Positions 507-35,782 of a stretch of DNA of 64,000 nucleotides are shown here, piece after piece (positions within the stretch are counted from its first letter, which is position 1; each line of letters begins with the position of its first letter). The DNA lies in NCBI RefSeq assembly GCF_040427915.1, contig NZ_JBETXJ010000002.1, forward strand, positions 62,001 through 126,000. The letters are read 5' to 3'. A model generated the notes under the pieces. It did no database searches and was not told where the DNA came from. It saw only the letters and a list, made by a program, of their open reading frames with translations. The stretch is from Gardnerella vaginalis (lineage in GTDB: Bacteria; Actinomycetota; Actinomycetes; Actinomycetales; Bifidobacteriaceae). The position numbers and the translations under genes are program-made.

Positions 507-690
507 GCGGATTAGCCGCGCTCACGCCTTCGCTTGCGTTGAAAGCACCCCACAAGGTTGGCTCTGTGACTAAGGCTCAGGCTCACGCCTTCGCTTGCGT
601 TGAAAGCACACTGTGCTTTCAACCTTAAGCAAGCTCAGCGCTCCGAATTACTTTTTCGCGCTACGCTCTAAGCGAAAAGGCAGGTCGTCG
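507..690. repeat. Mosaic hairpin element, copy Y1
   Basis: This is a noncoding module that recurs at 35665-35780 (Y2). It begins with CGCGGATTAGCCGCG, carries a hairpin at 593-634 and ends with a second hairpin whose arms are CTTTTCGC and GCGAAAAG near 652-680. The 593-634 hairpin has an outer stem GCTTGC/GCAAGC, inner arms GTTGAAAGCACA/TGTGCTTTCAAC around one C, and a CTTAA bulge on the 3' side. A 28-base direct duplication starts at 521 and again at 582. No reading frame is conserved between Y1 and Y2. Confidence 0.75.
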
Positions 691-692
691 CG

Positions 693-843
693 CCTGCATT
701 TGTTTACCAAAACAGCAAAAAAGGGAACAAACGTGGGAAAGTGTTCTTGCGTTTGTTTACCAAATCGACCAAAACGTAAACAAACGCGGGGAGATGTTCT
801 TGCGTTTGTTTACCAAATCGCACTAAAAGGGAACAAACACGGG
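693..843 (-). repeat. Array of three 45-bp palindromic units (53-bp period)
   Basis: The units are at 693-737, 746-790 and 799-843, each an imperfect inverted repeat. In this orientation they run from GTTTGTTTACC on the left to GGGAACAAAC or GTAAACAAAC on the right. They are separated by 8-base spacers that end in the same TGTT core. The array has the opposite orientation to those at 47967 and 49964. Confidence 0.85.
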
Positions 844-861
844 AAAAACACAACGCAAAAA

Positions 862-902
862 CAAAAAACCCTGCCACCCGTCGATGGCAGGGTTCTTTTT
901 TA
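862..902 (-). terminator. Rho-independent terminator after rpmF, bidirectional
   Basis: A 10-bp perfect stem (AACCCTGCCA at 867-876, TGGCAGGGTT at 885-894) with an 8-base loop is flanked by A and T runs on the two sides. It can therefore terminate in either direction. It lies just past the rpmF stop codon. Confidence 0.85.
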
Positions 903-911
903 AAATACAAC

Positions 912-1106
912 CTACTTGGTGTGCGCAGAGCGAATTGCTTCGCGATACACGCGACCGCGGAAGTTACCGCAGGTTGGGCAAGCCATGTGAGACAACGCTG
1001 GCGAACCGCAGTTCGGGCAGGTAATAGTCTGCACGGCAGAAGCCTTCCAATTGGCGCGACGCGAATGAGTATTAGCGCGCGAGGTCTTGTACTTTGGCAG
1101 TGCCAT
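912..1106 (-). CDS. rpmF: Ribosomal protein bL32
   Basis: A 64-residue large-subunit ribosomal protein. It starts [17 protein letters not shown] and carries two CxxC pairs (CPNCG and CPTCG, about residues 34-49) that bind zinc, so this is the zinc-ribbon form of bL32. The ATG at 1106 is preceded by GAGGAAAG at good spacing. In most bacteria rpmF follows the DUF177/YceD gene directly. Here about 610 bases of repeat DNA separate the two, so co-transcription is uncertain. Confidence 0.97.
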
Positions 1107-1221
1107 AATCTTTCCTCTATTTCGTTCAACCGATTGAGCTTAAGCGTTCTGTATATTACAGCAAGCGCCATACATTATTCAGAAACACACTACATGGCAG
1201 GTCGTCGTTCGCGCGTTACAG

Positions 1222-1710
1222 CGCTCTATTCCTCGCGGCTATTAGTAGCCGCTCGGCTGATTTGGCATGTAAAGTCCACTGGACTTTACATTTGAGCCAA
1301 ATCACGCTTTGAAGGAGCTTGAAATGCGTTATGCAATTTCAAGCTCAGTCAAAGCGCAAGTAAGGTAGAGATTCGAGATTTTTCGCAGCTAGCGAGGCGA
1401 GCCTCAGCGCCGAAGGTGGTGACTCGCCGAGAGAGCAAGAAAAATCGAGAGTCTCGGTGATTAAGCAATACGCAATTGTTCAGACTTGTAAGAGGGCTGG
1501 GTGATTCTTGGTCGAACAGTATAAGAGCGGCAGCCGATACCAAATAATCCAATGACACACGCCTACAAACAAATTTAAACCAAAAACAAAATCAAAGCCA
1601 AATCGGAACAACCGCAACAACAGAAAACACGTAAGAGGCGGAGCGTTGTGAGACAAGAAACACCCAGCCCTCAGCAACATTAAGCAGGAATCGCGCAACA
1701 CCAAGCAAGG
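1222..1710. repeat. Long mosaic element, copy A (between DUF177 gene and rpmF)
   Basis: A noncoding element of about 490 bp filling the 1107-1717 gap. In order it holds a CGGCTA/TAGCCG hairpin, the covarying hairpin at 1258-1304, a long hairpin at about 1305-1358 (outer CGCTTTGA/TCAAAGCG, inner GAGCTTGAAAT/ATTTCAAGCTC), a GAGATTC/GAATCTC hairpin at about 1368-1455, a unique body, and a terminal GAAACACCCAGCCCTC at about 1661. Copies B (10634), C (26978, inverted), D (13800, partial) and E (21150, decayed) share these parts. Confidence 0.8.
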
Positions 1711-1717
1711 ATTTTAT

Positions 1718-2359
1718 TCAGGCAGATTGTTGTGCTTCAAGCTTTGCCTTAAGACCTTCAAGCGCTGCAAAACGAATATCCGTAATATCGTGATGATGCT
1801 CTGGATGTTCGTTCAAGTTTTCTCCGCACTGCGAGCAAAGACCCTTGCAATCTGGCTCACACAAAGGCTTAAGCGGCAGCTCACTAACCATTGTGTCTCG
1901 AATCAATGCCTCGATATCGGCAAAGTCGCCTCCGCCAACCAGCGGATACACGTTTCCAGAATCGTCGCCCTCGTCCCAAATATCAGCGTCTTCTAAATCA
2001 TCATTATCGCCATTAGCTCTATTAGATTTAGAATTATTGAAACGCGCACCGCCCTTGCTTTCCACCTGCGCAAAGAACGCGCACACATCAACACTCCAAT
2101 CCCTATGCAACGACATCAGGCATCTAGAGCATTCTGCGTGTACGCGCGCTGTAATCGTGCCCTGAAACATAAGCCCGTCCACTACGGAATCAAAGTTGCC
2201 GTCTACTGTAACATCGCTCCCTGGCTTCACGCCAATAACGCTGTCTCCTATACCTTCTGGCGCTGGAAACACACGATGTAACTGCATGCTACTTCCTGCT
2301 CGTGCCGCCATTTGCGCAACTGGTACCGCCCATAAAGACTGGGAGGGATGCGATGCCAT
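1718..2359 (-). CDS. DUF177 (YceD) family protein
   Basis: A 213-residue protein of the DUF177/YceD family, whose bacterial members are usually encoded next to rpmF and are linked to 23S rRNA or large-subunit assembly; the exact role is not established here. The family's cysteine cluster is visible as CEPDCKGLCSQCGENL near residues 160-178, and an earlier ECSRCL lies near residue 76. An acidic stretch (DDLEDADIWDEGDD) sits in the middle. The start at 2359 follows AAAGGAA and lies two bases past the stop of the upstream SepIVA-like gene, so the two are probably translationally coupled. Confidence 0.88.
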   Translation of the reverse strand: MASHPSQSLWAVPVAQMAARAGSSMQLHRVFPAPEGIGDSVIGVKPGSDVTVDGNFDSVVDGLMFQGTITARVHAECSRCLMSLHRDWSVDVCAFFAQVESKGGARFNNSKSNRANGDNDDLEDADIWDEGDDSGNVYPLVGGGDFADIEALIRDTMVSELPLKPLCEPDCKGLCSQCGENLNEHPEHHHDITDIRFAALEGLKAKLEAQQSA

Positions 2360-2361
2360 TC

Positions 2362-3291
2362 TTAGTTCCTTTCTTCGCTTTCGTTTACAACTTCTCCATT
2401 AACTTGTCTGTTAATCTCGTCTTGCACATGCGCCGCCGCACGCCTGCGTTCTTCTAGAACTCGCTGACCCGCCTGAACATCCTGCTCTAGCTTGTCTAAC
2501 TGCTGTTTTAAGCCTTCCATAACCGTAGCACTGTACTGATCCGCACCACGCGTGAGTTTATCAGCCTTTGCCTGCGCCTCGTTTACGATTCCTCGCGCCT
2601 GATTTCTTGCAATGGCAACCACGTTTTCTTGACCAGCCAAGAATTTAGCCCTCTCTTGTGCTTCTTCAACCATCTGAGCAGCCTGGCTTTGTGCAGAACT
2701 TACGATTGAATTTGCTTGAGCCTGAGCTGTGCGCAAGCGTCTTTCTGCCTCTCGCATTAATGCACTCGCGCGCTCAAGTTGCACTGGTAGCATGTCTTTT
2801 AACCTAGATAAGTAGTCGCCGAATTCTTCGCGATCAATCTTCGCCATTCCAGCAGAAAACAGCACGCCCTTTGCTTCATTTAACGTGGTTTCCATTGTGT
2901 CGATTATGTCGTAAACCGTTGTGAATTCTTCACGCGACTTTGTTCGCACTTCTTCGCTTACTGTTTGCGGATTCGCGGTTTTAAACACGTTTTCTTCTTC
3001 ATCTTCAAACTCTATTGCACCACCGTCTTCGCGTTCACGCAAATCTGGCATTGGGAACAAGTTTTGCGCATTATCGCCAGCAACCGCAGAATCAGCAGAA
3101 GAATCGCCAGCAACCGTAGAATCGCCAGCATTATCATCGTTAGTCTTATTTGCCGCAGGTACTGCGTCGTAAGCTTCAAAAGCAGCACTGGGCGAATCAT
3201 CGTTGTTTGCAATCACTGGATTTAATGGCAACTTTTGGCTGCGATTTGCCGATACTTGGCTTTCCATTGTGTCGTCTTCGTTTTCGCTCAT
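2362..3291 (-). CDS. SepIVA/DivIVA-like coiled-coil cell-division protein
   Basis: A 309-residue protein. The first 130 residues are acidic and low in complexity. The rest is a long Ala/Gln/Glu/Arg-rich coiled coil (about residues 130-300) beginning TTVYDIIDTMETTLNEAKGV and continuing as ERASALMREAERRLRTAQAQA. This layout, and its place between the DUF177 gene and coaD, match the mycobacterial gene next to rnc and its DUF177 neighbour (sepIVA), which acts in septation and polar growth. Function here is inferred from that synteny. The start is the ATG at 3291 with GGAGA upstream. Two exact copies of a 12-base word repeated across the window (3074-3085, 3104-3115) lie in the disordered part and encode VAGD. 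Confidence 0.7.
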   Translation of the reverse strand: MSENEDDTMESQVSANRSQKLPLNPVIANNDDSPSAAFEAYDAVPAANKTNDDNAGDSTVAGDSSADSAVAGDNAQNLFPMPDLREREDGGAIEFEDEEENVFKTANPQTVSEEVRTKSREEFTTVYDIIDTMETTLNEAKGVLFSAGMAKIDREEFGDYLSRLKDMLPVQLERASALMREAERRLRTAQAQANSIVSSAQSQAAQMVEEAQERAKFLAGQENVVAIARNQARGIVNEAQAKADKLTRGADQYSATVMEGLKQQLDKLEQDVQAGQRVLEERRRAAAHVQDEINRQVNGEVVNESEERN

Positions 3292-3379
3292 TTTGTCTCC
3301 TTCGCTAAGTAGCTGCTCTCTGTTTCTCCTAATAATTTTATTTTATTATTTTAATTTTATGACTTTATTGTACGTATTT

Positions 3380-3934
3380 TTATGATATTGCACTTGTTTT
3401 AGAAAAAACGTTCTGTAAAAGTGGAACCACATTATCTGGTACCATTCCAGAAACGTCTCCGCCGTGACGAGCAACATCTTTTACAACGGAGCTAGAAACA
3501 TGTTCCAAAATAGGGTCTGCAGGAAGGAACATGGTTTCTATCCCAGCAAGCTTGCGATTAACCAGCGCCATTCCAAGCTCCGCCTCATAGTCGCCATTTT
3601 GACGCAATCCTTTAACTATTACGGTTGCGCCGACTTTTTTGCAATAATCTGTGATAAGACCATCTGTGGAGGCAACAACTATTTTGCACGCTGGCGACTG
3701 TGATGCTCCGCATAAAGGTGGAGCAAATTTCCCGACTGGAAAATCATCTTTTAGGTTTTTAACAGCATTGCGAATAATATCCACACGCTCCGATTCGGAA
3801 AACATTGGCGTTTTTGCCGCGTTAACAGCCACCAAAACATGCACTTCTTTAAAGAGATGCGTACAACGTTGTATCACGTCTAAGTGTCCGGCTGTAACGG
3901 GGTCATACGAGCCTGGGCAAACAGCTATAGTCAT
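3380..3934 (-). CDS. coaD: Phosphopantetheine adenylyltransferase
   Basis: Catalyses ATP plus 4'-phosphopantetheine to dephospho-CoA, the penultimate step of coenzyme A synthesis. The 184 residues show the nucleotidyltransferase core [16 protein letters not shown] (TxGH motif, residues 8-23) and the C-terminal [20 protein letters not shown]. The family is usually about 160 residues; the excess is an insertion near residues 75-85. The ATG at 3934 has no obvious ribosome binding site. A run of 11-bp tandem repeats begins only 15 bases upstream, which could influence initiation. Confidence 0.95.
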
Positions 3935-3948
3935 ATTTTCAGGTTACC

Positions 3949-4014
3949 ACGAGTCTGACACGAGTCAGGCATGAGATAGATATGAGCTAGGCATGAGCTA
4001 GACATGAGCCTATT
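3949..4014. repeat. Six 11-bp tandem repeats upstream of coaD
   Basis: Six consecutive 11-base units with a consensus close to ATGAGCTAGAC. The two units nearest coaD read ACGAGTCTGAC and ACGAGTCAGGC. The block fills the coaD 5' region. Variation in unit number between strains would be expected. Confidence 0.85.
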
Positions 4015-4037
4015 TTTCCTGCTTTTGTTTCTTTTTC

Positions 4038-4082
4038 CCCGCGTTTGTTCCCATATTTGACGTTTTGATAAACAAACACGGG
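4038..4082 (+). repeat. Single 45-bp palindromic unit, with a fragment of a mosaic element
   Basis: One unit of the 45-bp family (CCCGCGTTTGTT ... AAACAAACACGGG). It is followed at about 4088-4130 by a fragment of the module also found near 13770, reading GCAGCTCGAGGTCGTCGATT. With the 11-bp repeats it fills most of the 3935-4251 gap. Confidence 0.85.
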
Positions 4083-4251
4083 CAAAATACGCAGCTCGAG
4101 GTCGTCGATTCGCTGCGAAAAATCGAGAATCCCCACGCACTAATCGTAGATAGGCATAGGACTATGATTGGCTGCAGGTAAAAGTCGCGTATAAAAGTCG
4201 TAAAGAACGCGCTTTAAGTTTGATTATTAAAATCGCAAGAAAGGATTGAAA

Positions 4252-5661
4252 ATGCTTGATTCTTTTGATTTCTCAAAGTCTGAAGCAAAGTCCGAAGTAA
4301 AGTCTTACACAAACTCTTCCGTACTCATGACAGACATGTACGAGTACACAATGCTCGACGCAGCACTAAAAGACGGCACAGCAGACCGCAAATGCGTTTT
4401 TGAGATTTTTACGCGACACCTTCCTCAAGGCCGACGTTACGGAGTGGTAGCAGGCACAGGCAGAATCCTAGAGGAGCTAGCGCGATTCCACTTTAGCGAC
4501 GATGACTTGCGATTTTTGCAAGACCGCAAAATCGTTAGTAAAGACACCATTAAATGGCTAGAAAACTACCATTTTAGCGGCAAAATACGCGGTTACAGAG
4601 AAGGTGAAATGTTCTTCCCAGATTCGCCGATTTTGCAAGTTGAAGGCACTTTTGGCGAGTGCACGTTGCTAGAAACGTTGCTACTTTCCGTGCTTAACTA
4701 CGATTGCGCAGTGGCGAGCGCCGCCGCACGCATGGTTTCCGCGTCTGCTGGAAGGCCGTGCATGGATATGGGTGGCAGGCGTACAAACGAGTGGTCGGCT
4801 GTGGCTGCTTCTCGCGCGGCGGTAATCGGCGGTTTTAAAGGCACGGCAAACCTGCTTGCGGCAAAGCTTTACGGGCTTAAGGCGATTGGAACGGCCGCGC
4901 ATTGCTTTACGCTTGTGCACGATTCGGAGCGCAATGCCTTTGAGTCACAAATTGCAGCACTCGGAAAAGGCACAACATTGCTTGTAGACACGTACAACGT
5001 AGAAGAAGCTGTTAAAACCGCCGTGCAAGTTGCTGGTGCGGATCTTGGTGGTGTGCGCATTGATTCGGGCGATTTGTGCGTTATGGCTCGTCGCGTTCGC
5101 GCACAGCTCGACGCATTGGGTGCTAAAAATACTAAAATCACGGTTACGAACGATTTGGACGAGTATGCGCTTGCGTCTTTGCAAAATGCACCAGTTGATT
5201 CCTACGGCATTGGAACAATGCTTGTTACGGGTTCGGGCGCGCCTACTTGCGCAATGGTTTATAAACTCACAGAACGTGAAGGCGCGGATGGAGTTATGCA
5301 ACCTGTTGCTAAGAAGTCTAAGAATAAGGCAACTGTTCCAGGGCGTAAGCTTGCGTACCGTTCCTACGATTTTAGCGTCGATGTGAATGGTGGCGTGGCT
5401 AGCAATGGCGTAGCCGATTGTGAGCATGTAATTTCTGGCTCGGAGAGTGCGCTCGCTGATTTTAAGCCGCAAGATTCTTGGGAAGATTTGCTAGTTGACT
5501 ACGTGCAAAATGGAGAATTTAATACAGAGTTTATGGGTCATGACGCGATCATGCGCGCACAGGACTATTGTGCTAAAGCACTTAGCAGACTTCCGATTTC
5601 TGCTCAAAGTCTTATGCGTGGCGACCCTGCGATTCCTACAGAAATCAACGTTTTAGGCTAA
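4252..5661 (+). CDS. pncB: Nicotinate phosphoribosyltransferase
   Basis: Converts nicotinate, PRPP and ATP to nicotinate mononucleotide in NAD salvage. The family core is clear: LMTDMYEYTMLDAAL near the start, RRTNEWSAVAASRAAVIGGF near residue 180, and GTAAHCFTLVHDSERNAF with the phospho-accepting histidine near residue 220. GVRIDSGDL and YGIGTMLVTG close the barrel. I chose the ATG at 4252, which has AAGAAAGGA at proper spacing; a TTG two codons upstream sits on top of that site. No riboswitch or operator was recognised in front of it. Confidence 0.95.
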   Translation: MLDSFDFSKSEAKSEVKSYTNSSVLMTDMYEYTMLDAALKDGTADRKCVFEIFTRHLPQGRRYGVVAGTGRILEELARFHFSDDDLRFLQDRKIVSKDTIKWLENYHFSGKIRGYREGEMFFPDSPILQVEGTFGECTLLETLLLSVLNYDCAVASAAARMVSASAGRPCMDMGGRRTNEWSAVAASRAAVIGGFKGTANLLAAKLYGLKAIGTAAHCFTLVHDSERNAFESQIAALGKGTTLLVDTYNVEEAVKTAVQVAGADLGGVRIDSGDLCVMARRVRAQLDALGAKNTKITVTNDLDEYALASLQNAPVDSYGIGTMLVTGSGAPTCAMVYKLTEREGADGVMQPVAKKSKNKATVPGRKLAYRSYDFSVDVNGGVASNGVADCEHVISGSESALADFKPQDSWEDLLVDYVQNGEFNTEFMGHDAIMRAQDYCAKALSRLPISAQSLMRGDPAIPTEINVLG

Positions 5662-6005
5662 AAGCCCAGATTGTTCATCTCTTCGTAGATTTTTTTGCAC
5701 TCTGGGCAAACAGGGTAGTCATTAGCTTCGCGCTTTGGAATCCATACTTTCCCGCACAGTGCTACAACTGGGCGGCCAGTTAGTCGCGATTCGATTACGC
5801 GATCCTTGGAAACGTAGTGTGCAAAGCGGTCTGCATCACCACCATCGTCCATTCGCGCTGATTCATCTACCTCTGGCTTTTCAAGTACGCTCGTGCTTGT
5901 GCTAGACCCAGAATCTGGGAGGCTTTGTGAATCGTCTTCCATAACAGCGTTCAAATTAGCAGCGTTTGGATCTTCGCTATACTTTGAATCATTTGAAAAC
6001 GTCAT
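5658..6005 (-). CDS. DUF3039 domain protein
   Basis: A 115-residue actinobacterial protein of unknown function. The first 55 residues are acidic and disordered. The conserved part begins at DRFAHYVSKDRV and contains CGKVWIPKREANDYPVCPECKKIY, whose single Cys and CPEC pair suggest a small metal-binding fold. The start is the ATG at 6005 with GAAAGGGA upstream; a longer frame to 6260 would overlap cysS and is not needed. The stop overlaps the convergent pncB stop by four bases. It is transcribed divergently from cysS. Confidence 0.85.
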   Translation of the reverse strand: MTFSNDSKYSEDPNAANLNAVMEDDSQSLPDSGSSTSTSVLEKPEVDESARMDDGGDADRFAHYVSKDRVIESRLTGRPVVALCGKVWIPKREANDYPVCPECKKIYEEMNNLGF

Positions 6006-6144
6006 TGCATCCCTTTCGTACAAATCGCGCTTTGTTGATTGCGACTCATGTTTATACAAGCATAAGTCATAATCGCAACAAATACTCGAATCGACAACCT
6101 CGAGCTTAACGCGTGAGTTATTAGCTAAACATATAATTGAGATT

Positions 6145-7725: not shown

Positions 7726-7797
7726 GCAAAAGCAATGTAAACATAATAAAAAGCAATACAACAAAACATTCCAAACAACCTGTAGAATAGAGCAATT

Positions 7798-9498: not shown

Positions 9499-9549
9499 TG
9501 CAGATAATGTGAAGAACGCAGATAACCATATAATACGAATAATCAGTAG

Positions 9550-10632: not shown

Positions 10633-10633
10633 C

Positions 10634-11105
10634 TCTATTCCTCACGGCTATTAGTAGCCGCTCGGCTGATTTGGCACATAAAGTCCACTGGACTTTATGC
10701 TTGAGCCAAATCACGCTTTGAAGGAGCTTGAAATGCGTTATGCAATTTCAAGCTCAGTCAAAGCGCTTCTTCACGCGAATAACTATGCTCTTTGCATACA
10801 ATACCCCACTAAGTCAGGTAGAGATTCGAGATTTTTCGCAGCGAAAGAGGCGAGCCTCAGCGCCGAAGGTGGTGACTCGCCGAGAGAGCAAGAAAAATCG
10901 AGAATCTCAGGCGATTAAGCTATACGCAATTGTTCAAGCATGTAAGAGGGCTGGGTGATTCTTGGTCGAACAATATAAGAGCGGCAGCCGATACCAAATA
11001 ATCCAATGAGCCGCCACTACAAACAAACTTCAACCCAAAAACAAAATCAAAGCCAAATCGGAACAACCGCAACAACAGACTACACGTAAGAGGCAGAGCG
11101 TTGTG
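10634..11105. repeat. Long mosaic element, copy B
   Basis: Nearly full copy of the element at 1222. It holds the CGGCTA/TAGCCG hairpin, the covarying hairpin at 10667-10713, the GAGCTTGAAAT/ATTTCAAGCTC hairpin at about 10714-10765, the GAGATTC hairpin at about 10824-10912 and the same body. The only open frames inside it are not conserved between copies. With the next module it fills the gap between the EEP gene and rpsP. Confidence 0.8.
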
Positions 11106-11245
11106 CGAATCGACGACTTCGAGCTGCATAGCGCGCGAGAAGTCACCTCGATTCGCTGAGCCGCTTAAATGTAAAGTCCAGTGGACTTTACATGCGGCGA
11201 AGACGTGAGCGCGGCTAATCCGCGCGAGCGCAGAAACACCCAGCC
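11104..11245 (-). repeat. Mosaic module X, inverted copy
   Basis: Module X recurs in the other orientation at 13643-13792. It runs from CGAATCGACGACTTCGAGCT to a terminal GAAACACCCAGCCCTC at about 11227. It contains the covarying hairpin at 11160-11198: outer GCCGC/GCGGC, TTAA bulge, inner arms ATGTAAAGTCCA/TGGACTTTACAT around one G. Confidence 0.8.
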
Positions 11246-13642: not shown

Positions 13643-13792
13643 GTTGCGTGAGGGCTGGGTGTTTCTACGCTCGCGCGTTACATCGCGCTCACGCCTTCGC
13701 CGCACGTAAAGTCCACTGGACTTTACGTTTAAGCGGCTCAGCGAATCGAGGTGACTTCTCGCGCGTTATGCAGCTCGAAGTCGTCGATTCGC
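13643..13792 (+). repeat. Mosaic module X, direct copy
   Basis: It starts near GAGGGCTGGGTGTTTC and ends near GCAGCTCGAAGTCGTCGATT. It contains the covarying hairpin at 13699-13737: outer GCCGC/GCGGC, inner arms ACGTAAAGTCCA/TGGACTTTACGT, bulge TTAA. Compared with the copy at 11160 the inner arm carries a paired T-to-C and A-to-G change. Confidence 0.8.
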
Positions 13793-13799: not shown

Positions 13800-13940
13800 T
13801 TAGCTGCGCTATTCCGAACGGCTATTAGTAGCCGTTCGGCTGATTTGGCATGTAAAGTCCACTGGACTTTACATTTGAGCCAAATCACGCTTTGAAGGAG
13901 CTTGAAATGCGTTATGCAATTTCAAGCTCAGTCAAAGCGC
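13800..13940. repeat. Mosaic element, copy D (left part only)
   Basis: Left third of the long element: CGGCTA/TAGCCG-type hairpin, covarying hairpin at 13841-13887, and the GAGCTTGAAAT/ATTTCAAGCTC hairpin at about 13888-13940. Its last bases overlap the rsmD stop codon. Together with module X it fills the 13609-13927 gap between the convergent trmD and rsmD. Confidence 0.8.
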
Positions 13941-26794: not shown

Positions 26795-26891
26795 TGCGCG
26801 TTTAAGCTTATTTGCCCAACTTTTATAATCTAGTCGCTAAAGCGATTAAACACCACGATTTGCGCTATACGCACACAACACATTCACATTT

Positions 26892-26936
26892 CCTGCGTTT
26901 GTTCCCATATTTGGCGTTTCGATAAACAAACTCAGG
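26892..26936 (+). repeat. Single 45-bp palindromic unit
   Basis: CCTGCGTTTGTTCCC on the left pairs with AAACAAACTCAGG on the right; the centre is TTGGCGTTTC. It belongs to the same family as the arrays at 693, 47967 and 49964. Confidence 0.85.
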
Positions 26937-26977
26937 AATATCACTTGCTCGTTATAGCTCATTATTCCTTATTTGTT

Positions 26978-27343
26978 GTTGCGCGAGGGCTGGGTGTTTC
27001 TTGTCTCACAACGCTCTGCCTCTTGCGTGTTGGTTATTGTTGCGGTTGTTCCGATTTGGTTTTGATTTTGTTTTTTGAGTTGAAGTTTGTTTGTAGTGGT
27101 GGCTTATTGGATTATTTGGTATCGGCTGCCGCTCTTATACTGTTCGACCAAGAATCACCCAGCCCTCTTACATGCTTGAACAATTGCGTATCGCTTAATC
27201 ACCGAGATTCTCGATTTTTCTTGCTACTTCAGCGAATCACCATTTCATGCTGAGGTTCGCTTCATCCGCTGCGAAAAATCTCGAATCTCCACCTTACTTG
27301 ATGCAGCACGCACCAGCGTAGAAACACCCAGCCCTCGCGCAAC
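26978..27343 (-). mobile_element. MITE-like mosaic element, copy C, with perfect 23-bp terminal inverted repeats
   Basis: The left end (26978-27000) and the right end (27321-27343) are perfect 23-base inverted complements, each built around GAGGGCTGGGTGTTTC plus GTTGCGC, and similarity continues outward for about ten more bases. Between them lies the shared long-element body in inverted orientation, including the GAGATTC hairpin at about 27205-27290. There is no transposase gene and no clear target-site duplication. A nonautonomous element mobilised in trans is the working interpretation. Confidence 0.55.
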
Positions 27344-27373
27344 AGTAAATAGGAAAACCGCGCAACACCAAAT

Positions 27374-27412
27374 AATTAATGGCTTGAAGAAACTATCCCC
27401 AAGCCATTAATT
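27374..27412 (-). terminator. Hairpin terminating the giant surface-protein gene
   Basis: Thirteen-base perfect arms AATTAATGGCTTG and CAAGCCATTAATT with a 13-base loop lie 47 bases past the stop codon. The downstream side is A/T-rich but lacks a clean T run. Confidence 0.6.
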
Positions 27413-27458
27413 CACATTACTCCAATCGTAGCAGCATCACACACCGCTACAGATTAAA

Positions 27459-30400
27459 CTAACGAGCCGAATGCCTCCTACGCTTAGACGCAGCACCAGC
27501 CACTCCGAGTCCAGCAAACACCGCAGCGAAAGCAGCAAACACCGAGGAGCTAGCGCCAGTATTAACGCCACTCACGTCACCACGCTTGAGATTCATTCCA
27601 GCAGAGTTACGCGCTGCGAGCATTCCATCACGCAAAGCTGCACGCGCAGCACGCAAACGAGCCAATGCCGAATCAACCTGCCCCTGAGTAGCATTAGCGT
27701 CCGCTAACACTAAACGAGCATAATTCAAAGCCGCATTAAACTCACTCACCAAGCTAGAATCAGCCACTACACCATTAGCATTAGCCGAAACATCACCAAG
27801 AGCTTGATCAACCTCAGCCTGCAAAACACTCTTATCAACAACATTATTAACACTAGTAGTATTCGAATCGTTAACACCAACACCAGTATTAACATCGGTA
27901 TCGGTTCCAAAATCATGGTCAGAACCACTACCGACACCACTGCCACTATTAATAAGCCTGTTATAAGAATCAATCAACTTTTGCTTAGCAGCACGAAGCC
28001 TACGAAGAGCCTGATCAACCTGAGCTTGTGTAGCATTAGGATCCTTAAGCACACTATTCGCATCATTCAACGCCTGCTGATACTCTGCCAGATCAGCAGC
28101 CTTACCAATAATGAACGGAATCGACTTACGGAAATCAGAATCCTTACCAGCCTCAGTGTTCAAATCAGACTTATCAGTCTTATGAGAATCAGCAAGCTTC
28201 TTCTTAGCATCCTGAAGCTTCCTCAAAGCCTCATCAACCTGAGCCTGAGTTGCGTTAGGATCATCGAGCACAGAATTAGCTTCGTCGAGAGCCTTCTTAT
28301 AAGCCTCAGCCTCTGGGCTTCCTGCAGCATTCTGATACTCAGGAGACTTAGTGAAGTCAGAATCCTTACCAGCTTCAGCAGTCAGATCAGTCTTATCAGT
28401 CTTATAACCATCCGAAAGCTTAGACTTAGCATCCTGAAGCTTCTTCAAAGCAGCGTCAACCTGCGCCTGCGTTGCATTCTTGTCACCGAGAACCTTGTTA
28501 GCGTCTTCCAAAGCCTTCTTGTAGGCGTCAAGAGCATTCTTAGACGCATCATCACCCTTAGCCTGAGCATTCTGATACTCAGGAGTCTTGGTAAAGGTGT
28601 CATTAGCATCCGCCTCAGACTTCAACTTAGAAGAATCAGTCTTATAGCCGTCAGTAATCTTCTTCTTAACGGCTTTCAAGGCATCTAGGGCGTCGTCAAG
28701 CTCTTTCTGAGTTGGAGCCTTATCCATTCCTTGAGGCAGCTGATCCTTTGGCTTGCCAGTAGTGCGGTCAAAGGCATCAAGGAGACCCTTAGCAGCCTTA
28801 AGCTTCTCATTATATTCATCAAGAGCCTTCTTGGCAGCGTCATCACCCTTAGCAGTCGCGTTCTTGAACTCAGGAGTGTTCTCAAACACGTCGGTGCTGG
28901 TGTCGTCTTTGCCGTCCTTAGACTTATCAACTTCTTGTTGCAAGTCATGCGGACTGGTGACGTAGTTCTTAGTAATCTTATCCTTAATTTCCTTCAGATT
29001 CTTAAGGGCATCGTCAACTTCCTTCTGAGATGGGATGTCCTTTTCACCAGGCTTTGGCTTACCATTCTCATCGAACTTGCCAAGAAGATCATTAGCTTTC
29101 TTTAGAGCATCTTGGTATGTTTGAACATCTTTTTTGCCGTCAGCATCCGTCTTAGCAAGCGCATTCTTGTACTCAGTAGAGTTTTCGAACTTATATTTGT
29201 CTTCCTTTTCTCCGCCGTCGTCCTTAAGCTCTTTTGTTTCTTTCTTAAGAGCGTCAACTTTGGTCGTAAAGGTGTCATCGATAGCTTTCTTAGCCTGCTT
29301 CAAAGCTGCAAGAGCATCGTCAACCTGCTTCTGCGTTGGCTTTGTATCTGGGGCAGCGTTTGGATCAGGGTGATTCACCTTGTTTATAAGATCCTGTGCA
29401 GCCTTGAGCTTCTCGTTGTAAGTTTCCAGCTTCTTGGTGGCAGAGTCCTTACCAGTTGCAGCATCGCCAGTTTCGGATTGCTTCTTATACAGAGCATTCT
29501 TGTACGGAATCGACTCCTCAAACTTAGGAGTTACAGGCTTGCCGTCTTGATCTTTATCGCCAACTTCGTTCTTAAGCTTGTCAGCGTTGGTCTTGTAGTT
29601 TTCAGCAATCTTCTTCTGAGCACCCTTAAGCTGCTTAAGCAATGTGTCGACCTCACGCTGAGTAAGGTTGCCAGCATTCTGCAGCTTTTGGGTTATCTTT
29701 TCCACAAGCTTGGTAAGACCAGGATTCTCATCAGTACCATCCAAGTCCTTACCAGCTTGTTCATGATTTGCATTGTTAGCGTCAGCCTTGATTGCTTCAG
29801 CATTCTTATACTCAGGCGTCTTCTTGAAGTCACCATTTGCATATTCTTTTGCTTCGGTGAGCTTAGAAGTATCTGTCTTGTAACCATCAGTAATAGCTTG
29901 CTTTGCCTTCTTCAACGTTTCGAGAGCATCATCAATCTGCTTCTGAGTTGGACGCTCACTAAGCGTATCCGAATCCTTCTTAGCAAGTAGATCACGCGCA
30001 TCCTTCAACGCCTTCTTATAAGCTTCAATATCAGACTTCGCCTGCTGAACATCAGGATCAGTATCTGGCTTAACATTTTGCTTGTAAGATGCATTTTTGA
30101 ACTCTGGAGAGTCCTCAAACTGGCCAGCGGTTGGAGCGGTTGCATCAGCAGCTTGAGACTTCTGTGCTTCCGCGTCAAGCTTCGTGGTGTCAGTCTTGTA
30201 GTCATCAAGATTCTTGCGTGCTTTATCAAGAGCATCAAGTGCATCGTTGATGTCTTTTTGAGTTGGCTTTGCGTCTTGCGGCGTATTTGCATCACCATGC
30301 TTCTTCAAAAGCTCCTGAGCTTTTGTCAAAGCTTCATCATACGCCTTCTTGGCTGCAGCAGCCTTAGTGTTCTTATCCGTATCAGGAACAAGCTTGCCGT

Positions 30401-33400
30401 CCTGCTCCTTCATGAAGTGAGGATTAGACGCATTGCGATACGCATCAGAAGTTTGCGTGCCTTCTGTAGGTGCAGTACCCTCTGTATCGCCATGCTTCTT
30501 TACGCTTTCCTTAAGCTTGGTGGTGTCGGTCTTATACGTGTCAAGAGCCTTACGCTTCTCGTTAAGCTTCTGAAGCGCGTCGTTCACTTCCTTCTGCGTT
30601 GCAGCAGGATTCTTGAGCAAGTCTTTAGCTGCGTTAAGAGCGTCACCATAGTCATCTACAGCCTTCTTGGCGGCATCATTCTTGGTAGTATCGGCAGTAG
30701 TGCCGTCTCCTTGTTTGTAATCAGGCTGCGAAGCATTCTTATACGCAGGGTTTTGATGCGTGGCCGCGTCCTCGTTGACCGACTTAAGCAGCTCGTCGGT
30801 ATTAGTCTTAAACTTATCCAGACCTTTAACGGCATCATTAAGCTTTGCGAGGAGCTTTGTTACATCCCTATTTAAAGGCTGACCCTTAGCGTGCGCTTGC
30901 AACTTCTTAAGCGCATCTTTGTTGGTCATGTCAATGTTTTTATCTGGAATAACGGACTCTGGGATTTCGCTACCGTCGTCACCCTTGTCCTTATCCATAT
31001 TATCATTGAAGGCCTTTTGCAACTCCTTAAGCGCATCGTCGTATGCTTTCGCTGCATTCTTAGCATCCTCAGTTGCGTCAGTAGCAGAAGCATTCTTATA
31101 AGCAGGGCTTGCTTTAATAGCCAAGCTGTGAAGCAGCGCCGCAGAAATCTTGCTGGTGTCGGTGGCGTACTTATCGATTGCCTTACGGGCTTCAACAAGC
31201 TTATCCTTAGCCGCGTCAACCTTTTTCTGATCTACGGTGCTCCCTGGCTTCTTTAATTCATCCATCAAGTCTTTTGCAGCATGATAAGCGTCGTTATAGT
31301 CTTTGAAGTCTTTTGCGGCTTGAGAATCTTTGCCCTTAGCTTGCGCTTCATCAAAGGCATTGAAGTACGCTGGCATCAAATAACCGCTGAAGTTGTCCAC
31401 AAGTGCCTGCGCAAGATCAGTTGCTTTTGTTTGATAAGTTTCAGCATAAAGTACCTTTTCAGCATCTTCAAGATCTTTCTTAGCCTTATCTACATCGGCC
31501 TTTGTAGCGTTCTTGTCACCAAGCACTCTCTTAGCTTCTGCAAGCGCCTTATCGTAATCCTCAACAGCCTTTTTAGCAGCCGCGTCAGTGTCTTTCTTCG
31601 CGGCGGCGTTCGTGTAGAACACGCTATGCTTGTTAGGATCTTTTGGATCAGGGTTATCTAAAGTCTTTTGAACGGCAGCGTCAAGAGGAGCCTTGTTGGT
31701 TGCGTTCTTGTCGAGCGCATCCTTAGCTTCCTTAAGCTTCTTGATAGCCTCGTTCACTTCCTTCTGAGAAGCGTTTGGATCGGCGACTACCTCACCAGCC
31801 TTCTTAACAGCGTCGTCGTACGCCTTGCGCTGTTCAGGAGTTGAGTTCTGGTAGGTTGGGTCGGCGGTCTTAAGTTTCTCTGTAGGATCAGTCTTCTTTG
31901 CATCTCCCGTGTTTACCTTGCCATGCTGAGCGATTGCATTATTCAACTCATCCTTGTTGGTGCTAAATTCATTAAGCTTTTCGCGTGCAGCATCAAGCTT
32001 AGCCTTGGCTTCGTCAACAGCCTTTTGAGTGGCGTTGGCATCATCCTTTAACTTATTGGCTTCAGCAAGCGCGTCATCGTAAGCCTTCTTAGCCGCTTTG
32101 GCGGCATTGTTCCTGGCTTCGTCAGTCTTGCCTTCAGGCGTCTTAAAGTCGGGATTAGTAACATTCTTGTACTTGTCACTAGCCTTTGTACCAGTTGTAG
32201 CTTGTTGACCTTCAGCAGGCGTGCCATCGGCTTCAATCGAGGCGTTCAGCTTATCCTTGTTGGTGTCAGCACCATCAAGCTCGGCACGAGCCTTATTAAG
32301 GTTAATCGTCGCGTTATCAACTTCAGCCTTAAGCTGTTCAGATAACTTATCGTCTGTGGTATTACCAACTTTTGTAAGCGTATCCTGAGCAACCTTCAAC
32401 GCATCATCATACGCCTTCTTCTTAGCGTCCGACGCGTTGTAGTACTTGGACTCGGTTGGAATATCCTTGCCTTCAACAGTTTCAGTCTTATGCTCGCCAA
32501 TCGAATCCTTAAGATCCTTAGTCTTATGCTTCGTTTGAGGCATAAACACTATATTGATGCCCTTAGGGTTGTTGCGCAGATTATACTTGCCTTCGCCGTA
32601 AATGTTGTTGTAGTGATACTGCGAATATGGCTCAATGAACAAGCGGCCGAGCATATACTTGTCTTTTTTACCAGCAATCTTTACTGTCTTGCTGTCGGCG
32701 TCAAACGTAAAGTCTCCTGCGCTTGCCTGCTCATCGCCCATTTTCTTATCGGAATTACTAACAGGTTGCGAAAAACGGCCATAACTACTGCCATTAAGCT
32801 TACTTAAGTTAAGCACGCCAATAGGATTGCCTTTATCATCAACCGCATAACCGGTATGCGAGCGCGGATCCTTGCCACCTTGACCTTCGTGCGCAACAGT
32901 TTTGTACTCAGACCCAAGAAGCTCTGTGCGCATCTGCGGATTGTCTTTCTTCAAGTCTTCTTTGATGGTAGCTTTCAGTAGACCTAAGACGTCTTCAGTA
33001 TTAAACGTCTTGCCGCTATCTGAATCGTAACGGTAAACAAGCGTCTTGCCATCTTCCATCCAAGCAAGACCTTCATCGCTTGCGCGACCATCAATCTTGT
33101 TCTTGTTTGCTTCCCAGCTAAGCGTGTAATCGGTGCGCAAATTCACCAAACGAGTGAGCTTGTTATGCTTTACGTCTGAATCGAACTTTGCAATCGCTTT
33201 GTCGGTTTTAATGGTTACATGAATAGTGTTTTCACTATCACCATTAGAAATACCCTGGTTGCCAGTACCAGATGCTTGCAGGTTGCCTCTATTCCAGTCG
33301 AGCGTAATCTGATTTGCATAATCGGTATCGCTTAAACCAAGTGCATTATTGCCTTTGTTTGCTTCGTAAATGGCCTTCTTAATTGCATCTTCTTCTGCTG

Positions 33401-35180
33401 TGGTGAAGCCCAAAGGATTGGAGATAATAACCGCCTTAGTTGTAGAGCCTTCATCATCGCTTGGAACGGCATACTCGCCAGCTTTGAGATTCTTGAGGAC
33501 GAGGTCTTTCAGATCAATTTTGGGAGCGTCGTTTTCGTCCACGCCGTCGAAGCTGATGACCGCTTGGCCCTGGTCATTGAACTTGACTTTGTCTTGCGTC
33601 ACGTGATTGAGCTGGGCGAGCTTCTTGCAAATATCCGCCTTTTGGTCATCTGTGAGCTTTTTGATATCCACTTCGTCTACGACGGGCTTGTCGATGCGCG
33701 TGTCGTAGCGTGCAACGGTAAGTGGCAAATCATCAGAAGTATAACCAGTGTCGGTTATGAGATGAGTTTTGAGTGTTCGTACCATAGGTGTGTACGTTGT
33801 TTCGGTATCGCCCGGTTTCGATGTTGTTCTATTAAAGTTAATAACATCAGTTGGAATGTATACACGCTGAGCGTTAATAATCACCTTGTTTTCAGCGGTA
33901 TCTGGCGTCTGAACAAATGCACCGTTCGCTCCCGTGTTTCCACCAACGCCCTTAGACGTACTTGCGGCTTGAATTTGCTCGCGAATTGATTTATTACCAG
34001 TTGCTTCGGTAGGAGCATCAATGGCTTTTTGAAGCTTCTCACGAATTTGTTGTGCAGTAAGTTCTTCGTTATACTTCAGCACAATTGACCCAGCTGTTTT
34101 AGGCGGAATAAGTGTTGCTGCACGTGCAATATTAGTCTTGTACAGCAAGACTTCGTCTCCACCATCTTTTTTACCGTACACATAAATGCAACGGTTTGCA
34201 GCGTATGCTACACCGCTGTTAAGATTGCCATCTCTAAAAAGAGGTGTCATTTCAAGCTTTGCAGAGCCGTCAGTATTCGGGGTAAACGTATATTCACCAG
34301 AATAAGATTGATGCAGCCCCGTATTTCCAGAATAGTATTCAGCAGCATTTCTACCTTTATCGGTGGTCATACTATTGTTTTGAGCAGGGAAAATGGCAAT
34401 ACTGCTAATATTGTATCCATCTTTTGGCTTTGCAAAGTTGAAAGTAACAGTGTTACTTTGTCCGCTTTTAATATACGTATTATTAGACGATCCCCATGCG
34501 TACATATTCGGTACGCTATTTTTTGTATCTTCGGAAATATTTATTTGATTCGAAACGGAAGGTTCTGGATTAGCTTCGCGATCTGTGCCAACAACAGGTT
34601 CACCCTGCTTCTGATTTTCAGCACTCAAATCACGCTTTTTACGACTCTTTGCGACATTTTCTGCAGGAGTGCTATTTTCTGCAGTATCCTGTTTTGCATC
34701 TTGATTATCTACAGACGCAATGCTCTCAACCTTCGACCTAGCCTCAGTCTTAGTAACATCAGTATTACCGTCGGTCTTTGCTACAGCCTGCTCAGCTGGT
34801 TTAGTCTGCTCCTTCTTAGGTTCTTCCTTAGCTTCCTTAGATTCTTCCTTCTTAGCTTCTTTCTTCACTTCACTGTTAGGAGTCTCATCCTTAGAAGCCT
34901 CATTCTTCTTAGTAGCCTTAGAATCATCAGAAGTCTTAGAATTACCCTTATTAGCATCAACTAAATTCTGCTCCTTTGCAGAATCATTCGTATTAACAGG
35001 CGCAACATTAGCCTCAGCAGCCATCGCAGGAGTTGCGCCAAAAGCAATCGCAGCGCCAGCGATTACGCCAGCAGCACCAGCCGAAAGAGCAGCCACCTTA
35101 CGAATATCAACAGTCTTTGCAGACTTATCTTTTGCAGAACCAAATGTCTTGTCAGCATGTTTAGCAGATTTTGTAGTCAT
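27459..35180 (-). CDS. Giant secreted cell-surface protein with about 17 FIVAR-like repeats
   Basis: A 2,573-residue protein. Residues 1-54 form a long signal peptide (RKVAALSAGAAGVIAGAAIA, predicted cleavage after AMA). Residues 55-210 are a Lys/Glu/Ser-rich disordered region ending near SRKKRD. Residues 220-890 are unique. From about 890 to 2510 come some 17 three-helix repeats with the pattern KTD..KL / PEYKNA / YKKAL..A / NATQ.QVD.AL..L..AK, characteristic of FIVAR-type adhesin repeats. The tail has SGVNTGASSS, a hydrophobic stretch (AAFAAVFAGLGVAGAA) and SKRRRHSAR, a sortase-type layout with VNTG in place of LPxTG. A role in adhesion or biofilm is inferred. The start has AGAGGAG upstream. 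A C11 tract lies 215 bases upstream. Confidence 0.88.
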   Translation of the reverse strand: MTTKSAKHADKTFGSAKDKSAKTVDIRKVAALSAGAAGVIAGAAIAFGATPAMAAEANVAPVNTNDSAKEQNLVDANKGNSKTSDDSKATKKNEASKDETPNSEVKKEAKKEESKEAKEEPKKEQTKPAEQAVAKTDGNTDVTKTEARSKVESIASVDNQDAKQDTAENSTPAENVAKSRKKRDLSAENQKQGEPVVGTDREANPEPSVSNQINISEDTKNSVPNMYAWGSSNNTYIKSGQSNTVTFNFAKPKDGYNISSIAIFPAQNNSMTTDKGRNAAEYYSGNTGLHQSYSGEYTFTPNTDGSAKLEMTPLFRDGNLNSGVAYAANRCIYVYGKKDGGDEVLLYKTNIARAATLIPPKTAGSIVLKYNEELTAQQIREKLQKAIDAPTEATGNKSIREQIQAASTSKGVGGNTGANGAFVQTPDTAENKVIINAQRVYIPTDVINFNRTTSKPGDTETTYTPMVRTLKTHLITDTGYTSDDLPLTVARYDTRIDKPVVDEVDIKKLTDDQKADICKKLAQLNHVTQDKVKFNDQGQAVISFDGVDENDAPKIDLKDLVLKNLKAGEYAVPSDDEGSTTKAVIISNPLGFTTAEEDAIKKAIYEANKGNNALGLSDTDYANQITLDWNRGNLQASGTGNQGISNGDSENTIHVTIKTDKAIAKFDSDVKHNKLTRLVNLRTDYTLSWEANKNKIDGRASDEGLAWMEDGKTLVYRYDSDSGKTFNTEDVLGLLKATIKEDLKKDNPQMRTELLGSEYKTVAHEGQGGKDPRSHTGYAVDDKGNPIGVLNLSKLNGSSYGRFSQPVSNSDKKMGDEQASAGDFTFDADSKTVKIAGKKDKYMLGRLFIEPYSQYHYNNIYGEGKYNLRNNPKGINIVFMPQTKHKTKDLKDSIGEHKTETVEGKDIPTESKYYNASDAKKKAYDDALKVAQDTLTKVGNTTDDKLSEQLKAEVDNATINLNKARAELDGADTNKDKLNASIEADGTPAEGQQATTGTKASDKYKNVTNPDFKTPEGKTDEARNNAAKAAKKAYDDALAEANKLKDDANATQKAVDEAKAKLDAAREKLNEFSTNKDELNNAIAQHGKVNTGDAKKTDPTEKLKTADPTYQNSTPEQRKAYDDAVKKAGEVVADPNASQKEVNEAIKKLKEAKDALDKNATNKAPLDAAVQKTLDNPDPKDPNKHSVFYTNAAAKKDTDAAAKKAVEDYDKALAEAKRVLGDKNATKADVDKAKKDLEDAEKVLYAETYQTKATDLAQALVDNFSGYLMPAYFNAFDEAQAKGKDSQAAKDFKDYNDAYHAAKDLMDELKKPGSTVDQKKVDAAKDKLVEARKAIDKYATDTSKISAALLHSLAIKASPAYKNASATDATEDAKNAAKAYDDALKELQKAFNDNMDKDKGDDGSEIPESVIPDKNIDMTNKDALKKLQAHAKGQPLNRDVTKLLAKLNDAVKGLDKFKTNTDELLKSVNEDAATHQNPAYKNASQPDYKQGDGTTADTTKNDAAKKAVDDYGDALNAAKDLLKNPAATQKEVNDALQKLNEKRKALDTYKTDTTKLKESVKKHGDTEGTAPTEGTQTSDAYRNASNPHFMKEQDGKLVPDTDKNTKAAAAKKAYDEALTKAQELLKKHGDANTPQDAKPTQKDINDALDALDKARKNLDDYKTDTTKLDAEAQKSQAADATAPTAGQFEDSPEFKNASYKQNVKPDTDPDVQQAKSDIEAYKKALKDARDLLAKKDSDTLSERPTQKQIDDALETLKKAKQAITDGYKTDTSKLTEAKEYANGDFKKTPEYKNAEAIKADANNANHEQAGKDLDGTDENPGLTKLVEKITQKLQNAGNLTQREVDTLLKQLKGAQKKIAENYKTNADKLKNEVGDKDQDGKPVTPKFEESIPYKNALYKKQSETGDAATGKDSATKKLETYNEKLKAAQDLINKVNHPDPNAAPDTKPTQKQVDDALAALKQAKKAIDDTFTTKVDALKKETKELKDDGGEKEDKYKFENSTEYKNALAKTDADGKKDVQTYQDALKKANDLLGKFDENGKPKPGEKDIPSQKEVDDALKNLKEIKDKITKNYVTSPHDLQQEVDKSKDGKDDTSTDVFENTPEFKNATAKGDDAAKKALDEYNEKLKAAKGLLDAFDRTTGKPKDQLPQGMDKAPTQKELDDALDALKAVKKKITDGYKTDSSKLKSEADANDTFTKTPEYQNAQAKGDDASKNALDAYKKALEDANKVLGDKNATQAQVDAALKKLQDAKSKLSDGYKTDKTDLTAEAGKDSDFTKSPEYQNAAGSPEAEAYKKALDEANSVLDDPNATQAQVDEALRKLQDAKKKLADSHKTDKSDLNTEAGKDSDFRKSIPFIIGKAADLAEYQQALNDANSVLKDPNATQAQVDQALRRLRAAKQKLIDSYNRLINSGSGVGSGSDHDFGTDTDVNTGVGVNDSNTTSVNNVVDKSVLQAEVDQALGDVSANANGVVADSSLVSEFNAALNYARLVLADANATQGQVDSALARLRAARAALRDGMLAARNSAGMNLKRGDVSGVNTGASSSVFAAFAAVFAGLGVAGAASKRRRHSAR

Positions 35181-35394
35181 GTTCTCCTCTTTCCGTGAGA
35201 TTAATTCGATTTACTTGATATTGCTTTGCGCGCCAACCTTGGCTCCCAAAGCCCTATAGTTTTTAACAATAGCTTTACAAAGTCTTATAGCGTACATCTA
35301 TAATGATGTAATCACCCTTTGATAAATCATTATAACATTTTAGAAAAAATTTTGAAGACAACTAACAAATGTTTATAGCTTCGGGGGATACATA
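35181..35394 (-). promoter_or_regulatory. Leader and promoter region of the giant surface-protein gene
   Basis: The ribosome binding site AGAGGAG precedes the ATG at 35180. A TATAAT-like -10 on the minus strand is at 35329-35334. The -35 candidate TTGTCT (35356-35361) is spaced 21 bases away, which is too far for a good sigma-70 promoter, so the assignment is tentative. Confidence 0.35.
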
Positions 35395-35405
35395 CCCCCC
35401 CCCCC
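35395..35405. repeat. Homopolymer tract of 11 C (11 G on the coding strand)
   Basis: A run of eleven C begins eight bases after a GGGGG run (35383-35387). It lies about 60 bases upstream of the probable -10 of the giant surface-protein gene. Tracts of this length are prone to slipped-strand length changes. Confidence 0.9.
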
Positions 35406-35560
35406 AAGCCTTTTATTTTAAGGGTTTTTGCGAAATAATTTTTTCAAAAATTCTTGCGATTCTGGCGAGTCAACCGCCATTTTTAGCTCACTCATCTAAA
35501 CATTTGTATATGATACAAATCACATTTTTAGACCCTCTGCAGCGCGCTTTTTTCTTTTAC

Positions 35561-35605
35561 CCTGCGTTTGTTCCCATATTTGGCGTTTCGATAAACAAAC
35601 GCGGG
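35561..35605 (+). repeat. Single 45-bp palindromic unit
   Basis: CCTGCGTTTGTTCCC ... AAACAAACGCGGG, almost identical to the unit at 26892. It is followed at about 35623 by a GAAACACCCAGCCCTC end fragment of the mosaic family. Confidence 0.85.
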
Positions 35606-35664
35606 AATACCCCTCGCGAGTGTAGAAACACCCAGCCCTCACACAACATTAAGCAGGAATATCG

Positions 35665-35782
35665 CTGCGCGGATTAGCCGCGTTCACGTCTTCGCCGCGC
35701 AGAAGCAGTGCTTCTGCTTTGAGCGGCTCAGCGCTCCGAATTACCTTTTCGCGCTACGCTCTAAGCGAAAAGGCAAGTCGAT
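35665..35782. repeat. Mosaic hairpin element, copy Y2
   Basis: Second copy of the module at 507. The hairpin at 35694-35727 has an outer stem GCCGC/GCGGC, inner arms GCAGAAGCA/TGCTTCTGC around one G, and a TTTGA bulge. In Y1 the outer and inner stems differ in sequence but pair equally well. The second hairpin (CTTTTCGC/GCGAAAAG) is conserved. Confidence 0.75.

Follow-up and report, generated by a model that had tools for sequence, protein, structure and literature searches.

Bulged hairpins of Gardnerella and Bifidobacterium as the probable core of a REP/BOX-like palindromic DNA repeat family

The seven bulged hairpins present in a stretch of 64,000 nucleotides from Gardnerella vaginalis (hereafter the window) are best explained as copies of HP2, the central module of a non-autonomous palindromic DNA repeat family of the REP/BOX type carried by Gardnerella and Bifidobacterium, a reading to which we assign a probability of about 0.6. 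This is the most economical reading of the data, with spread and correction of the repeats by a mechanism that may be host-supplied. Complementarity of the arms would follow from the palindrome being processed and copied as DNA, with pairing kept via exchange between copies and, probably, hairpin-templated correction. Comparison of genomes shows that the units vary in presence between close relatives, sit inside other intergenic repeats and have single hairpins reshuffled among them, while the YTRA bulge, the CA-N-TG apex and the closing GC may serve as putative recognition features for a DNA-binding or DNA-cleaving protein, which in Gardnerella-like genomes would be something other than a Y1 (IS200/RAYT) transposase.

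Hairpins of the window and the three-hairpin unit

A mechanical screen for odd palindromes, with a minimum arm length of 8 bases, returned nine sites in the window, seven of which are the hairpins listed by the first-pass annotation; all of these were recovered with the positions, arms, outer stems and bulges that it had described. The other two sites (34450 and 55068) lack an outer stem, so the screen gives no eighth hairpin of this plan. A common plan, consisting of an outer stem, an inner palindrome, a 3-base loop and a 3' bulge ending in YTRA, was found in 7/7 copies, although several details of the earlier description had to be amended. The bulge had been placed only on the 3' side, which holds for six copies as read, but in the copy at 11160-11198 it lies on the 5' side of the plus strand; this copy belongs to the minus strand and, read in that direction, again carries the bulge 3'. 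A 3-base loop (ACT or AGT) is a better description of the supposed one-base centre, and the bulge list of TTAA, CTTAA, TTTGA and TTGA was corrected to the consensus (N)YTRA. Besides, HP2 does not stand alone, being usually accompanied by one hairpin before it (HP1) and another after it (HP3) within a single unit.

Examination of the flanks of 15 copies, together with folding, indicated that the HP1-HP2-HP3 unit measures about 150 bp and that HP2 usually occupies its middle. HP1 is a GC-rich hairpin, often of the form CGTTCGCGCG...CGCGCGAACG, and its variants carry paired changes, as in CGTTAGCGCG...CGCGCTAACG; HP2 is followed by a short linker and by an HP3 of one of three types (a, b and c).

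Six of the window copies lie on the plus strand. Copy 1 (593-634) combines a GCTTGC/GCAAGC outer stem with GTTGAAAGCACA and its partner around a central C and a CTTAA bulge, and precedes a type b HP3 (638-693) that appears in the fold and whose limits were read from the sequence. Copies 2 and 3 share the TGATTTGGC outer stem: copy 2 (1258-1304; ATGTAAAGTCCA arms, TTGA bulge) stands between an HP1 seen in the fold at 1235-1252 and a type c HP3 at 1305-1356, and copy 3 (10667-10713; CATAAAGTCCA arms, CTTGA bulge) between a folded HP1 at 10645-10660 and a type c HP3 at 10714-10765. Copy 5 (13699-13737; GCCGC outer stem, ACGTAAAGTCCA arms, TTAA bulge) is flanked by HP1 at 13668-13693 and a type a HP3 at 13741-13792, both supported by folding, and copy 6 (13841-13887), of the same type as copy 2, by a folded HP1 at 13815-13838 and a type c HP3 at 13888-13939. 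Copy 7 (35694-35727) has a GCCGC outer stem, GCAGAAGCA arms of 9 pairs and a TTTGA bulge; it is followed by a type b HP3 (35731-35785) and preceded by an HP1-like hairpin (35667-35682) that was identified in the sequence, although the minimum-energy fold pairs this stretch otherwise. The minus-strand unit of copy 4 (11160-11198; GCCGC outer stem, ATGTAAAGTCCA arms, TTAA bulge) comprises HP1 at 11204-11230 and a type a HP3 at 11105-11156, both present in the fold.

Two further kinds of repeats were noticed in the window. Another palindromic family, built of tandem units of about 53 bp with CCCGCGTTTGTTCCC and GGTAAACAAA arms, occurs at 726-846, 47954-48171 and 49951-50065, and long internal repeats (D4, D7, D10 and D12) occupy 28123-31769, by its look a repetitive coding region.

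Copy number and host range

A model built from 11 HP2 copies (R1) located at least 27 HP2 loci in the source genome (G000) at E < 0.001, reverse-strand palindrome echoes excluded, and one more was seen at L043 1624-1657. When the source genome and 38 relatives were searched, 14/39 matched at E<=0.001, all from one GTDB genus, while 0 of 14 genomes from other families matched at this threshold. Among 112 genomes of the genus, 16 were positive at E<=1e-6, and twelve of these, with sizes of 1.5-1.8 Mb and 8-37 copies each, are termed Gardnerella-like here. A second model (R2), derived from 27 Bifidobacterium copies, matched 90/112 genus genomes at E<=0.001, with at least 1 to 57 matches each, counts that are lower bounds (up to 54 candidates were scored per genome) and that include several genomes with a single weak match; the remaining 22/112 gave no R2 match, and both of these observations weigh against the REP/BOX-like reading. 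In a 119-genome sample of the order, R2 matched two of the five genus members, the source genome being one of them, and 1/114 others, the 5:114 split being read from a table ordered with nearer kin first.

Pattern scanning of GTDB contigs, in which TTRA was required, returned 30 stretches, 29 of them from Gardnerella or Bifidobacterium. As far as searched, the family is nearly confined to these two groups, and no description of a bulged hairpin family of this kind was found in the literature searched, which lay mostly outside subscription journals.

Some single occurrences deserve mention. One genome from another family of the order (G193) has two R2 matches, at G193:C38:44092-44141 and G193:C51:81662-81709 (best E 2.2e-6). 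The remaining GTDB stretch (L185, 1850-2250) comes from a contig labelled as a Gammaproteobacteria MAG and shows two similar GGAAAGCCC hairpins in a different tandem-repeat context, which may reflect chance likeness or mis-binning. In Bifidobacterium scaligerum (L170, 5320-5620) three tandem units are spaced about 124 bp apart. Viral contigs yielded one stretch with one pattern and none with another; a 48.7-kb viral contig (L230) carries a GTTGAAAGCACA-type copy at 2714-2742, in phage or flanking host DNA.

Modular composition, covariation and conserved sequence

A pattern scan for the HP2 plan in 1,979,733 bases from 11 Gardnerella-like genomes gave 103 matches, whereas two first-order Markov shuffles yielded 0 and 1, although the density of matches is not a genome average, the scanned stretches having mostly been chosen for holding them. 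Six matches were set aside (four with the bulge GCAAG, one with TTGAA and one isolated and AT-rich), and 97 were kept. A rough pattern test, which left HP3 unclassed in 16/97, sorted these Gardnerella copies into 27 combinations of HP3 type with the outer stem and inner arm of HP2. The modules mix, but not freely, because the type c HP3 occurs almost only with the TGATTTGGC stem (12/13 cases), a restriction that counts against the REP/BOX-like reading. TTCG before and CTCA after HP2 were both present in 44/97 copies and both absent from 47/97. About ten types of HP2 inner arm exist among the Gardnerella copies, so that a single recent duplication, proposed at the outset as an outcome that would overturn the family, did not occur; chimeric HP2 copies, with the left half of one type and the right half of another, were found at G000:C2:838004 and in L219.

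The paired changes reported from the seven window copies proved to be real. An alignment of 23 distinct Gardnerella HP2 variants (A5) was limited to arms of 11-12 pairs and omits the 9-pair GCAGAAGCA type; of its 368 cells, 98.9% are paired, and both-side changes occur in 10/16 pairs. None of 500 shuffles reached the percentage of paired cells (98.9 vs 78.8 shuffled), the number of cells changed on both sides (80 vs 26.4) or the covariation score (0.590 vs 0.207), which fell to 0.099 or less when the partner was slid; the count of both-side-changed pairs and the number of further pair types were not above the shuffles, with 103/500 and 445/500 reaching them, respectively. For 58 distinct Bifidobacterium variants (A7), an alignment that was fitted to its own model and therefore leans towards structure, 98.8% of 745 cells pair, both-side changes occur in 10/13 pairs, and all five covariation measures were reached by 0/500 shuffles. 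The shuffle statistics of both alignments ignore relatedness. Covariation in a further alignment (A6) is weaker evidence than that of A7 and A5, because A6 was partly picked by a pattern that fixed several of its columns. A shared plan and covariation across many copies support the grouping of the hairpins into one family, and the absence of covariation, the other outcome that had been named as decisive against it, was not what the multi-copy alignments gave.

The accompanying claim that structure and not sequence is kept is at best half correct, since it does not extend to the bulge (YTRA), the apex (CA-N-TG) and the closing GC, which are kept as sequence. The 3' bulge ends in (C/T)T(A/G)A in 97/97 kept Gardnerella copies, and the apex CA-N-TG is present in most HP2 copies. 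Most Bifidobacterium copies examined have TTRA at the bulge position, and some have TTCA, TTAT or TTGT; since the GTDB scan required TTRA, that scan alone is no proof of bulge conservation.

Gene context and the question of DNA or RNA

Gene neighbourhoods were obtained with a simple longest-ORF script and not with a gene finder, and short spurious ORFs overlap some units. Gardnerella copies in co-directional gaps point 28 times in the direction of the genes and 27 times against it, and by quarter of the gap they number 14, 16, 13 and 11, with no build-up at the end of the upstream gene. Divergent gaps hold 5 copies against 16.2 expected by length (p=0.0008) and convergent gaps 23 against 15.7 (p=0.049), while 9 further copies fall inside predicted ORFs and 5 at the edges of the stretches. 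For Bifidobacterium, 58 of 71 matches were classed, the 13 weakest having been dropped: the 25 co-directional copies lie 16 with the genes and 9 against them, and the other 33 comprise 18 convergent, 2 divergent (a count without background) and 13 in predicted ORFs.

Cells with G-T and A-C stand at 11:8 in A7, 5:3 in A5 and 1:4 in A6, all small numbers, and a strand test based on wobble pairs revealed no strand preference. G-T makes up about 1.4-1.5% of HP2 cells (11/745 and 5/368); as a yardstick, among the 1226 pairs of 57 tRNAs detected by ARAGORN in the sequences retrieved, 89 are G-T, and as this program lists accepted pairs only, it provides a G-T share and no A-C count. Because the copies ignore gene direction, avoid divergent gaps and have G-T about as rarely as A-C, the family looks DNA-borne and not RNA-borne.

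A structured RNA, which the first-pass annotation had considered, would be a transcribed unit with a three-hairpin fold, acting as a small RNA or a 3' cis element, in which the bulge makes a protein or RNA contact. The strong covariation in A5 and A7 and the conserved bulge are in line with it, as is a 491-nt stretch containing copy 4 that folds far better than its shuffles (z -6.97). However, the even split of copies between the two gene directions, the scarcity of G-T relative to tRNA pairs and its parity with A-C disfavour this explanation, promoter-like and terminator-like sites around copies 3-6 are no commoner than in shuffles, and Rfam has 0 matches in the window at the gathering score, which also led us to reject a known RNA family. 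We regard a structured RNA as improbable.

In several Bifidobacterium species the units come after the typA stop codon, in copies that duplicate the 3' end of this gene; the gene was identified with TIGR01394 (E 4e-53) from its last 160 residues, which score below the full-length cut-off. Persistence at one place in several species has the look of an old, retained element and not of one that hopped recently, which counts against the REP/BOX-like reading. In L057, L059 and L074 the typA 3' end is repeated after the hairpin units with the codons for QNNQ...K-stop kept. The position of units close behind this stop codon, together with the convergent excess and the divergent shortage in Gardnerella, would suit palindromes that act as barriers at 3' ends, stopping or stabilising the transcripts of both neighbours and being kept for that purpose in any orientation. 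Nevertheless, a terminator has no need of a conserved one-sided bulge, co-directional copies are not concentrated at the end of the upstream gene, and the presence of units varies at many orthologous gaps between genomes about 95% identical, so that we consider such a role unlikely, albeit worth bearing in mind.

Turnover and nesting in close genomes

A region shared by the source genome and a close relative (G122), with blocks mostly 93-97% identical, contains 11 copies in the former and 15 in the latter, the G122 list deriving from a strict scan that may miss some. By script, 6/11 G000 copies lie in a collinear block, but at 225444 it is a neighbouring unit that the block matches, so that five were counted as shared; 6/11 G000 copies and 11/15 G122 copies have no clear collinear counterpart. 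For the G000 copies at 146865, 343643 and 365745, G122 has a copy in the same gap in another arrangement, and for those at 215853 and 285717 there is no G122 copy nearby. These last correspond to near-empty sites, in which 233 bp of G000 (215769-216002) stand against 5 bases in G122 and 536 bp (285634-286170), an insert that also holds other repeats, against 7 bases. Neither of these sites displays a clear target-site duplication, which along with terminal inverted repeats would mark a MITE, and this counts against the REP/BOX-like reading; the unit ends are not sharply defined.

Exchange at the level of single hairpins was also observed. At G000 374309, HP2 is common to the G122 orthologue and HP1 and HP3 are of other types. 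At G000 225305, most of the flank is identical and the arm has undergone a paired change, from ACGT to ATGT with its partner, alongside single changes in the bulge and on one side of the outer stem. Turnover and hairpin swaps between genomes about 95% identical lend support to the mobile palindrome, another of the options initially listed, and they fit exchange between copies with no need of selection for an RNA fold; both exchange and hairpin-templated correction can yield paired changes even if no fold is selected for. Nonetheless, recombination between repeats, or transport within a larger one, could account for much of what looks like movement.

Such larger repeats are indeed present. Gardnerella units occupy two slots of a longer palindromic repeat, the size of which, judged by eye, is roughly 450 bp. 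Its 185-bp core, at 10926-11110 of the window, was matched 14 times in G000, 18 times in G122 and 4 times in G085, and G125 and G117 gave no match; this longer repeat looks like a recent expansion that carried the hairpin units along. In one Bifidobacterium genome (G015), many copies of HP1-HP2 are enclosed by a AAGGATCCTTCG-like and a GCTCAGGATGAC-like sequence.

Ordinary duplication and recombination might even suffice, with neither a function nor a mover, if hairpin-templated mutation alone made the pairing perfect. The near-perfect pairing, the approximate equality of G-T and A-C, the tandem copies and the paired change between close orthologues would all follow, but correction alone would not demand a YTRA bulge in 97/97 Gardnerella copies or TTRA in most Bifidobacterium copies, which makes this account quite unlikely in our view.

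Search for a mobilising enzyme

The first-pass annotation had also suggested hairpins of the REP/transposase type. A search for Y1 transposases (PF01797), whose control was positive in 5/14 genomes, found none in the source genome or in the other eleven Gardnerella-like genomes, nor in an initial 24-genome set that included two Gardnerella-like members. Over the genus, PF01797 was detected in 7/112 genomes, five with R2 matches (G016, G052, G087, G088 and G095) and two without (G063 and G073), so that 85/90 R2-positive genomes had no Y1 gene found. Mobilisation of REP elements by a Y1 transposase of the RAYT/IS200 type would agree with REP-sized intergenic hairpins in many copies, with the REP-like preference in gene context according to PMC3733652 and with the Y1 gene in those seven genomes. 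On the other hand, the lack of Y1 in nearly all carriers speaks against it, no constant GTAG was seen by eye beside HP2 on the flanks examined, and in G122 orientation relative to the replication strand is balanced at 12:13 (25 listed of 31 copies; dnaA at 1.3 kb, terminus assumed opposite). The proposal is therefore extremely improbable for the family, and RAYT/Y1 as mover is refuted for the Gardnerella-like genomes. In the HP1 of TGATTTGGC units, ATTAGTAG is confined to the loop.

The segment of G122:C1 from 408,664 to 1,052,847, 39% of the chromosome and opposite dnaA, holds 0 of the 25 listed copies (of 31), which may mean that the repeats avoid the terminus region, no background having been computed.

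Tyrosine recombinases were surveyed as well. Phage_integrase matches number 2 in the source genome, probably XerC and XerD, and 2-3 in each of eight Gardnerella-like genomes, and with so few such genes a tyrosine-recombinase or integron mover was set aside as unlikely. One G021 stretch searched for a gene flanked by inverted copies ("REPtron") contains three ORFs of at least 100 aa whose translations, judged by eye, seem unlike transposases. Hence no mobilising enzyme was found among the Y1 transposases and tyrosine recombinases surveyed, which counts against the REP/BOX-like reading.

Relation to known repeat systems

The hairpin family has in common with the GTAG REP/REPIN elements of Proteobacteria and their RAYTs that it consists of short intergenic palindromes in many copies, with co-varying arms and a preference for co-directional and convergent gaps, but it differs from them by having neither a constant GTAG nor Y1 in twelve Gardnerella-like genomes, and by its three-hairpin unit and conserved 3' bulge. 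BOX, RUP and Correia-type repeats are modular multi-hairpin intergenic units that occur in both orientations and are probably moved in trans. The hairpin family resembles them in these respects, although sequence and layout are different and no terminal inverted repeat with target duplication has been shown in the hairpin family. Integron attC sites likewise vary in their arms and keep the fold and the unpaired bases; unlike them, the hairpin family has no gene cassettes or attC core motif seen, and the source genome has only 2 tyrosine recombinase genes.

According to PMC3733652, REP repeats prefer convergent and co-directional gaps, and the CGTC-tagged REPs (Di Nocera 2013) are palindromic repeats without a dedicated transposase, a feature that, like the gene-context preference, they have in common with the hairpin family; the main text of that paper makes no mention of Bifidobacterium, Gardnerella or Actinobacteria. 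Many Gardnerella units carry a CGTC, set a few bases ahead of HP2, that is missing from most of the Bifidobacterium or TGATTTGGC units examined, and the combined traits of CGTC REPs (end tag, CCA-like tail and loop of 4-5 bases) were not found. Before HP2, CGTCTTCGC is present in many units but solely in Gardnerella; in its place, Bifidobacterium has CACTTC or similar.

Implications for Gardnerella and Bifidobacterium

Palindromes of the REP kind are mostly attributed to Y1 transposases, or else no explanation is offered for them. A bolder extension of the REP/BOX-like reading, which we put forward as tentative and rather doubtful, is a genus-wide DNA hairpin system in which a non-Y1 enzyme recognises the fold and YTRA and cuts, copies or swaps whole hairpins. 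If true, the two arms of a hairpin could have drifted together throughout the existence of Bifidobacterium. The hairpins also represent a target for annotation, with each of the 90 R2-positive genomes giving at least 1 to 57 matches and Rfam silent in the window. Altogether, the combination of strong, testable covariation and recent turnover in carriers of which 85/90 have no Y1 found makes the spread and pairing of such repeats open to experiment in hosts that are common, culturable human bacteria.
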